Part shown: positions 46,027 through 48,305 of the stretch, piece by piece
Layout of the letters: each line of letters begins with the position of its first letter
Numbering within the stretch: the first letter of the stretch is position 1
Source of the DNA: Nitrospirota bacterium
Lineage (GTDB): Bacteria > Nitrospirota > Thermodesulfovibrionia > Thermodesulfovibrionales > UBA6898
Direction: 5' to 3'
DNA: 48,527 nt
Assembly: GCA_004321925.1 (NCBI GenBank)
Contig: SCQH01000001.1
Coordinates: 1 to 48,527 of the forward strand
Notes under the pieces: generated by a model
Seen by the model: only the letters and a program-made list of their open reading frames with translations
Told to the model about the DNA's origin: nothing
The model's database searches: none
Translations under genes and position numbers: made by a program

Positions 46027-46794
46027 CTACTTTTTGTCCACCAGTTCCTTGATCGCGGCAGCTTCACGGAAGCCTGAGATGGCCCTGCCGTTTGGCAGTA
46101 CCATGACAGGTGTACCATTGAACCCGAGCTTCTTTGCCAGCGCGATGTTCTTGTCAACATCGGTCGTCTTGCAGGCAGCCTTCGCTATCGGCTTTTTCTC
46201 AAAGGCCTCCTCAAGCAGGGCAAGGGACTTCCCGCAAACGATCGCCTTTGATTTCTCATAGGCCCCCTTATGGGTCGGAAGAGGGAACATCTTTATCTGA
46301 AAGGCTATGTCCTTCCTTTCCTCGACCACCTTCTTCATCTCCTTATGGAGCTTTGAGCAGAACGGGCAGTCAGGATCGGTAAAGACGATGACCTTGATCT
46401 TGGCGTCCTTGCTCCCCAGCAGTATCGCATCGCCCAGGGGGATCTTCGAGACATCGACCCTGTTCACCTCCGAGTATCTCTCCTGGGTCACGTTCTTCTT
46501 GCCCTTGATATCGATGATCGACCCGGAGACCGCGTATTTCTTTGTCACATCGAGGTAGACCAGCCCTTTTTTGTTGTCGGCCTCGAACTCGATCTCCCAC
46601 ATCGCCTTCAGAGGCGACAGCTGCACACCCTTGACCTTGATGTTCGGGATGATGTCCTTGAGTATCGTGGCCGCCTCCTCCTTCTTCAGGGTGTGGCACT
46701 TGGCACAGTCCTGGTCCTTGCTGCTGAAACCAAAAGAAAAAGCAGCAGGGATGACCATTGAGACCACCAGTGTGAATAATAATATTTTACGCAT
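46027..46794 (-). CDS. DsbC-like thiol:disulfide protein with an N-terminal CxxCH motif
   Basis: A periplasmic 255-residue protein. The signal peptide covers about residues 1-21. Right after it comes DCAKCHTLKKEEA (Cys30, Cys33, His34), a c-type heme attachment pattern. Residues about 45-115 resemble the DsbC dimerisation domain (IKVKGVQLSPLKAMWEIEF), and from about 130 a thioredoxin fold has the catalytic pair DCPFC (Cys143, Cys146), a cis-proline loop (NGTPVMVL) and a second cysteine pair (Cys187, Cys208). The likely role is disulfide isomerisation or apocytochrome and copper-protein maturation; heme binding is unproven. A TCAGGGG/CCCCTGA hairpin (45989-46017) follows it and might be a weak terminator before the kinase gene. 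Confidence 0.87.
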   Translation of the reverse strand: MRKILLFTLVVSMVIPAAFSFGFSSKDQDCAKCHTLKKEEAATILKDIIPNIKVKGVQLSPLKAMWEIEFEADNKKGLVYLDVTKKYAVSGSIIDIKGKKNVTQERYSEVNRVDVSKIPLGDAILLGSKDAKIKVIVFTDPDCPFCSKLHKEMKKVVEERKDIAFQIKMFPLPTHKGAYEKSKAIVCGKSLALLEEAFEKKPIAKAACKTTDVDKNIALAKKLGFNGTPVMVLPNGRAISGFREAAAIKELVDKK

Positions 46795-46812: not shown

Positions 46813-47526
46813 CTATTTGCCGGTTATGTTCAGATGGGGCTTCACATCCTTCTCAAAGGAAAGCCCCGAAAAATATTTCCCGATGGCCGTCCGGTATTCA
46901 CCGACAGAGCTCATCGCCTGCTGTGCAAGGGCAAACCTCTGTTCAAGGCCTATCCTGCCTCCATTGTCCTTGAGGGACTTTATAAATCCCGCATACTGGG
47001 AAGGGGCGGTCAGCACGGCAACGCTGTGCCAGTTCTTGGCAGAGGCCATGGTCATGGCCGGACCGCCGATATCGATATTCACCCGGGCGGTCTCGGACGT
47101 TGTCCCTTCCTTTGCAACAACCGAGGTGAAGGGATAGAGGTTGCCGACGAAGACATCGAAGTAAACGCCCGGGGAGCCTCCCATTGCCGCGAGGGTCCGA
47201 TACAGATATTCCTCGTGAGCAGGGTTGCCCCTTTCAGCCAGCAGACCTGCATGTATCTTGGGGTGAAGCGTCTTGACCAGCCCGCCCTCCATCTCCGGCG
47301 CTCCGGTGAAGTCCTCGACCGGGGAGTAGTTCTTTGAGGCATTGCTGCCGAGTATCTCCATGATCTTCTTGCCGGTCCCGCCGGTCGAATAGAACCGTGC
47401 CGATGGACTGACCTCAAGGATGCCCCGTATGAGCTCCTCAAGCCCTGCCTTGTCGAAGACGCTGACAAGGATATGCTCCGGCTTTATGCGGTCGACCACC
47501 TGATATGCATTTTCTCTGATGCTCAT
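46813..47526 (-). CDS. purH: Stand-alone IMP cyclohydrolase (N-terminal domain of PurH)
   Basis: Closes the purine ring, FAICAR to IMP, the last step of de novo synthesis. The 237 residues correspond only to the MGS-fold cyclohydrolase half of bifunctional PurH: VSVFDKAGLEELIRGILE, FYSTGGTGKKIMEILG, VEDFTGAPEMEGGLVKTLHP (catalytic lysine region), FVGNLYPF and IDIGGPAMTMASAKN. The AICAR transformylase half is absent and the gene ends with a normal stop, so formylation must be done by another protein (a separate transformylase or formate-dependent PurP). The ATG at 47526 follows GGGGGAG. It lies 32 bases behind the small dual-CxxC gene. Confidence 0.9.
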   Translation of the reverse strand: MSIRENAYQVVDRIKPEHILVSVFDKAGLEELIRGILEVSPSARFYSTGGTGKKIMEILGSNASKNYSPVEDFTGAPEMEGGLVKTLHPKIHAGLLAERGNPAHEEYLYRTLAAMGGSPGVYFDVFVGNLYPFTSVVAKEGTTSETARVNIDIGGPAMTMASAKNWHSVAVLTAPSQYAGFIKSLKDNGGRIGLEQRFALAQQAMSSVGEYRTAIGKYFSGLSFEKDVKPHLNITGK

Positions 47527-47558: not shown

Positions 47559-47750
47559 TTAGGCCCGGTCACAGGACCGGTTCGATATCTTTTCCCAGAC
47601 CTTCTCGTCTATCTCGTCGGCATAATCCGCGAGGCCGTATCTTCTGCCGCATTCCATGCAGCGCAGGCTGACAGCCCTTCAGCCAAAGGAGAGCATCAGC
47701 CTCCCTTTGCATTCCCTGCAGCGCATGTCCGTATCGAGTGTTCTGGTCAT
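47559..47750 (-). CDS. Small dual-CxxC protein with an in-frame UGA, probable selenoprotein
   Basis: A 63-codon frame from ATG 47750 to TAA 47559, interrupted only by TGA at codon 24 (47681-47679). Both sides of the TGA look coding and belong together: CREC (11-14) before it and CMEC (31-34) after it, then an acidic tail with YADEIDEKVWEKI. I recall a family of small dual-CxxC proteins that includes selenoproteins, and this fits. A SECIS-like hairpin lies 16 bases after the TGA. If read as selenocysteine, the product has Sec24 between two CxxC pairs, suggesting a redox or metal-binding role. The alternative is a recent nonsense mutation or an assembly error. It is probably co-transcribed with purH. 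A start at ATG 47726 is also possible; neither has a clear ribosome-binding site. Confidence 0.62.
47646..47662 (-). ncRNA. SECIS-like hairpin downstream of the UGA codon
   Basis: In the mRNA, GCUGCAU-GGA-AUGCGGC forms a 7-bp stem (one U-G wobble) with a GGA loop, starting 16 nucleotides after the UGA. Bacterial SECIS elements lie inside the reading frame at this distance, with G at the start of a small apical loop. The fit was judged by eye only. Confidence 0.5.
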
Positions 47751-47869: not shown

Positions 47870-48091
47870 TTATGATTCAGATTCTGAGCGGGGAATTCCG
47901 GACTGTCTGACAATAGACTGGAGTGTACCAATTTTGATTTCATTATGGTCAGGGACCGGAACAGTAATGGTCCCTTCAGATATCTTTTTCTGCATAACAA
48001 TATGACTGCCTCTTCTTCTTACCTCGCTGAACCCGTGCTGTGCCAGAATCGTGCAAACATCTTTGCCCGAAAGGACACGGAGTCTACCCAA
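47870..48091 (-). CDS. hicA: HicA toxin
   Basis: Small double-stranded-RNA-binding-domain mRNA interferase of a type II toxin-antitoxin module. TTG at 48091 is preferred: it gives GRLRVLSGKDVCTILAQHGF, the usual HicA N-terminus, has GAGGT upstream and overlaps the hicB stop by eight bases. The 73 residues contain the catalytic histidine in RRRGSHIVMQ and the following VPVPDHNEIKIGTLQSIVR. It is second in the operon, behind its antitoxin, the reverse of the common hicAB order. Confidence 0.9.
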   Translation of the reverse strand: MGRLRVLSGKDVCTILAQHGFSEVRRRGSHIVMQKKISEGTITVPVPDHNEIKIGTLQSIVRQSGIPRSESES

Positions 48092-48305
48092 CGGCGACCT
48101 CAACTTGTGTTACAAATATATCCCCGTGAAGCCGCTGCTTTATCTCCTCGGGAGAGGCAGTTTGAAAAAATAATTCCAATGCCTCTTTAAGGTTATCGCG
48201 CGCCTGCTCTATGGTATCGCCCTGACTCGCTATATCAAGCTCTGGGCAAAGAGATACATATCCGTCATTTTCTTTTTCTATGATTGCCGTCAGTTTTTGT
48301 GTCAT
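48084..48305 (-). CDS. hicB: HicB antitoxin
   Basis: A 73-residue antitoxin with the partial RNase H-like fold of HicB (LTAIIEKENDGYVSLCPELD, then GDTIEQARDNLKEALELFF). There is no C-terminal helix-turn-helix or ribbon-helix-helix, so DNA binding would have to come from another part or partner. It has an AAGGAGG ribosome-binding site and is the first gene of the hicB-hicA pair. Confidence 0.9.
   Translation of the reverse strand: MTQKLTAIIEKENDGYVSLCPELDIASQGDTIEQARDNLKEALELFFQTASPEEIKQRLHGDIFVTQVEVAVG

Follow-up and report, generated by a model that had tools for sequence, protein, structure and literature searches.

A 63-codon gene on the minus strand of the window (the whole stretch of DNA analysed, 48,527 nucleotides in length) almost certainly encodes a selenoprotein, in which a single in-frame UGA would be decoded as selenocysteine (Sec), and which belongs to the NF041197 family, known also as OS_HP3 or 'hypothetical protein DW'. 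The assignment draws on a residue 24 that is either Sec or Cys throughout the homologues, a conserved hairpin just downstream of the UGA, the presence of the Sec machinery in the genome, and the match to the family profile. It bears out the earlier note, which had put the locus forward as a candidate selenoprotein, and whose coordinates, TGA codon number, two CxxC motifs and hairpin loop starting with G were all correct (Table 1). With TGA read as U, the translation of the gene is MTRTLDTDMRCRECKGRLMLSFG-U-RAVSLRCMECGRRYGLADYADEIDEKVWEKISNRSCDRA.

Table 1. Features of the selenoprotein gene, with positions numbered along the window.
Feature	Position	Strand	Basis
63-codon selenoprotein gene, NF041197 family	47559..47750	minus	TGA=U translation, profile match, 125-locus alignment
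Start codon ATG	47750-47748	minus	
Stop codon TAA	47561-47559	minus	
In-frame UGA (TGA), codon 24, read as selenocysteine	47679..47681	minus	U 119, C 6 among 125 aligned loci
First CxxC, C11-x-x-C14 (codons 11-14)	47709..47720	minus	invariant in alignments
Second CxxC, C31-x-x-C34 (codons 31-34)	47649..47660	minus	invariant in alignments
Conserved C-terminal tail SCDRA + stop	47559..47576	minus	family consensus [PS]-C-[ND]-R-[AV]
Bacterial SECIS-like hairpin inside the reading frame (stem of 7 bp, loop GGA)	47646..47662	minus	kept pairs and synonymous recoding comparison

In a profile search the full 63-residue read-through product, which the earlier note had proposed to search, matched NCBIfam NF041197, 'dual CXXC motif small (seleno)protein', with 58.7 bits (cut-off 40) along the whole model (positions 1-52 of 53), and the Sec or Cys between two CxxC motifs that marks this family is represented here by U24 between C11/C14 and C31/C34. 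A six-frame search with the same profile gave 49.3 bits, with one TGA inside the match, and this was the sole match in the genome from which the window derives. For the read-through product no Pfam family scored above its cut-off, and an Rfam scan of the region returned nothing meaningful. The curated profile matches on both sides of the TGA, in agreement with the earlier impression that the frame is coding-like on either side of this codon. The family itself had been catalogued as a selenoprotein before the present analysis: a 2026 review (PMC13188914) enters NF041197 as OS_HP3, with reference to the 2007 work that first described it from the Delta symbiont of Olavius algarvensis, and a second time as 'hypothetical protein DW', taken from the deep-Sep paper, in which this protein comes from Desulfosarcina and has both TGA- and Cys-containing homologues (PMC12013277). 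The gene described here is a new member, not a new kind of system; it shares with the catalogued family the full-model match, the dual CxxC arrangement and the Sec or Cys between the motifs, and nothing was found that sets it apart, the adjacency to a purH-type gene being lineage-specific. Ordinary ORF calling does break the gene at the UGA, as had been foreseen, but the further expectation that standard annotation would leave a blank at this place need not hold for a pipeline that uses NF041197.

Among 396 genomes scanned from the same phylum, 152 carry the family, and in nearly all of these the match contains one TGA and no more. For alignment, 125 distinct loci were assembled, the window included; all but one came from the phylum scan, the exception being a Thermodesulfovibrio MAG obtained by a related-locus search. 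The codon aligned to position 24 is TGA in 119 loci and Cys in six (L012, L014, L020, L025, L054 and L055), and no other residue occurs, which answers the question, raised at the outset, whether homologues hold Sec or Cys at this position. C11, C14, C31 and C34 are invariant, Y43, W52, R58 and R62 nearly so, and the frame runs ungapped on both sides of the UGA across the 124 full-length loci. The Cys position of the C-terminal tail is less strictly kept, with Cys in 106 of the 125 loci, Ser in 15 and Ala in 4. Chance can be excluded, because the curated profile matches both sides of the TGA and position 24 is restricted to U or C in all 125 loci.

The genome of the window (3.2 Mb, 120 contigs) contains the four genes for which the earlier note had advised a search, namely selA (521 bits), selB (388 bits), selC, i.e. 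a tRNA-Sec with the anticodon UCA (70.6 bits, found by ARAGORN as well), and selD, which itself holds an in-frame UGA within SSCAGUAAKFSP (CAGU motif). One in-frame TGA is also found in a full-length match to the formate dehydrogenase alpha subunit. Along these lines, SelA was detected in 50 of the 54 UGA-bearing genomes tested; its absence from the other four is likely due to MAG assembly gaps, since three of them have a full-length selB and the fourth (G041) a tRNA-Sec candidate. Of the six genomes with the Cys form, three have selA and selB in full, two have neither above the cut-off, and one (G244) has both in fragmentary form, so that the Cys form is found in genomes that have the machinery as well as in genomes that lack it. 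In G244, selA and selB are present as fragments only (contigs C97 and C105), a tRNA-Sec candidate of 66.9 bits (L159) lies beside the selA fragments, and the family member (L014) has Cys in place of Sec; this genome is likely a snapshot of Sec decoding being lost.

The hairpin GCUGCAU-GGA-AUGCGGC comprises 17 nt and begins 16 nt past the UGA (+17 to +33). Its five central pairs, +18/+32 to +22/+28, are kept in 115-119 of the 119 Sec genes, and the first base of the loop is G in 113 of them. At the innermost position, +23/+27, 38 genes have U-A and 24 have C-G, a change on both sides, although 40 of the 119 have no pair there. Since the codons for C-M-E-C-G tend to pair with themselves, synonymous recodings served as the control (300 per gene, weighted by local codon usage). 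The Sec genes have a mean hairpin energy of -8.6 kcal/mol, as compared with -2.6 kcal/mol for their recodings; in 118 of 119 the native hairpin is the more stable when set against the average of that gene's recodings, and 79% of the Sec genes reach p<=0.05. For the six Cys homologues the corresponding means are -3.3 (observed) and -2.8 kcal/mol (recoded), with three of the six below their own recoding mean; L014 and L054 retain a moderately stable hairpin, which derives in part from the self-pairing of the C-M-E-C-G codons. When folded as a single sequence, the 54 nt of the window's own gene were not significantly more stable than dinucleotide shuffles (z -0.58). The hairpin of the window taken singly is thus not unusually stable, and the case for a SECIS element rests on the comparison across homologues, by which the hairpin is judged to be conserved far beyond what the coding sequence forces. 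The earlier observation of a hairpin with a G-starting loop at SECIS distance thereby gains a counterpart in nearly all of the Sec genes compared. On this comparative evidence SelB, carrying Sec-tRNA(UCA) and bound to the hairpin just 3' of UGA codon 24, would insert Sec at this codon in place of termination, and this read-through would yield the 63-residue protein.

Other readings of the UGA are hard to reconcile with these data. For an assembly of 120 contigs one might consider that the TGA arose through a sequencing error, or that a Cys-type gene in decay has acquired it by nonsense mutation. The same TGA is present, however, in four other genomes of the genus, so that a sequencing error becomes very improbable, and in 119 of the 125 homologous loci; moreover, the hairpin 3' of the TGA is under selection, and there is hardly any probability left for either version. 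Marginally less improbable, though still very much so, is a genuine stop separating two halves that do not form one protein: the frame is maintained without gaps on both sides across the 124 full-length loci, six genomes have Cys where the others have U, and the Sec machinery is present. Reassignment or suppression of UGA as another amino acid in this lineage, e.g. as Trp, is as extremely improbable as error or decay, for nothing was found in its favour, Cys is the sole alternative residue among the homologues, a UCA tRNA-Sec is present, and the UGAs detected elsewhere in long genes belong to selD and formate dehydrogenase, i.e. to known selenoproteins.

The earlier note had described the gene as directly preceding purH, and the start codon of an IMP cyclohydrolase (purH-type) gene is indeed situated 32 nt downstream of the selenoprotein stop codon, but this adjacency is lineage-specific, being restricted to part of the lineage, and no feature of the family: only 16 of the 125 loci have an IMP cyclohydrolase gene as one of the first two genes downstream, with other genes taking this place in other lineages, and on these grounds purH was dismissed as a functional partner. 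The 'purH' gene (46813-47526, minus) encodes 237 residues, which correspond to the initial part of the bifunctional AICARFT/IMPCHase domain only; it is probably of a stand-alone type rather than truncated, because the IMP cyclohydrolases of close relatives have the same length (~235 residues). It is followed by a gene for a DsbC-like thioredoxin-fold protein (DsbC_N plus thioredoxin domain; 46027-46794, minus), found in several relatives too. A short way upstream of the selenoprotein gene lies a probable toxin-antitoxin pair (47870-48305, minus), in which a toxin gene of the HicA type (PF07927) overlaps a HicB-like UPF0150 gene that scores below its curated cut-off. Across the family the first neighbour is co-directional in 97 of 123 loci, and elsewhere the co-directional gene that follows most often encodes a CxxCxxCC (PF03692) protein (17 loci), L13 followed by S9 (16), a YacP-like NYN protein (12) or S20 (9), where the ribosomal proteins L13, S9 and S20 (rplM, rpsI, rpsT) were named from their sequences, without a family scan. 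The PF03692 protein is a putative zinc/iron chelator; its gene comes immediately after that of the selenoprotein in 17 of the 125 loci and sometimes overlaps the end of the latter (e.g. L140, L141 and L102).

An AlphaFold2 model of medium confidence (pLDDT 70.5), calculated from a 68-sequence alignment, shows two strands (residues 17-22 and 27-31) joined by a turn that contains residue 24, a further short strand, and a helix at 49-56. Structural matches to the model were weak and mostly zinc ribbons, among them the RNA polymerase subunits RPB9/RPC11 and topoisomerase I (best Foldseek E 0.29; VIA Z <=3.7), and a profile search against PDB sequences gave partial, zinc-finger-like matches only. 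The zinc ribbons of RPB9/RPC11 and topoisomerase I, and likewise the small zinc-finger protein ZifS (8yoz), resemble the present protein in having two CxxC knuckles that flank a β-hairpin, with the reservation that the structural matches are weak; none of these proteins is known to carry Sec. Motif and model together suggest that the four invariant CxxC cysteines form a Cys4 pair of zinc-ribbon knuckles, and that the Sec in the β-hairpin turn between them is probably exposed and points away from the knuckles.

With regard to function, we tentatively favour a ribbon that serves as scaffold and presents one strongly nucleophilic selenolate for redox or electrophile chemistry, such that the protein might act as a reductant or respond to electrophiles or metals, with a partner protein or thiol as the presumed resolving partner of the selenolate. 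Somewhat less probable is a selenenylsulfide redox pair between Sec24 and the C-terminal Cys61, in the manner of thioredoxin reductase, with the zinc ribbon in a purely structural role. In favour of such a pair, the C-terminal Cys is kept in 103 of the 119 Sec forms and in three of the six Cys forms, but 16 of the 119 Sec forms have Ser or Ala instead, so that this Cys cannot be needed everywhere; an essential Sec-Cys61 pair is unsupported for the same reason. It is improbable, by a wide margin, that a zinc ribbon with a catalytic selenolate at the tip of its β-hairpin acts on an RNA- or ribosome-associated partner, a proposal that takes up the frequent position of the family gene beside rplM-rpsI, rpsT or a YacP-type NYN nuclease gene. 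If the neighbourhood reflects function, the selenoprotein would be linked to the machinery of translation or of RNA.

The gene, which ordinary ORF calling splits at its UGA, has thus been confirmed on comparative evidence as that of a real selenoprotein. As the hairpin and the codons for the second CxxC overlap, one and the same stretch of sequence is under constraint at the level of both protein and RNA. The family is common in the phylum, mostly in its Sec form, and this makes it a reasonable target for biochemistry.
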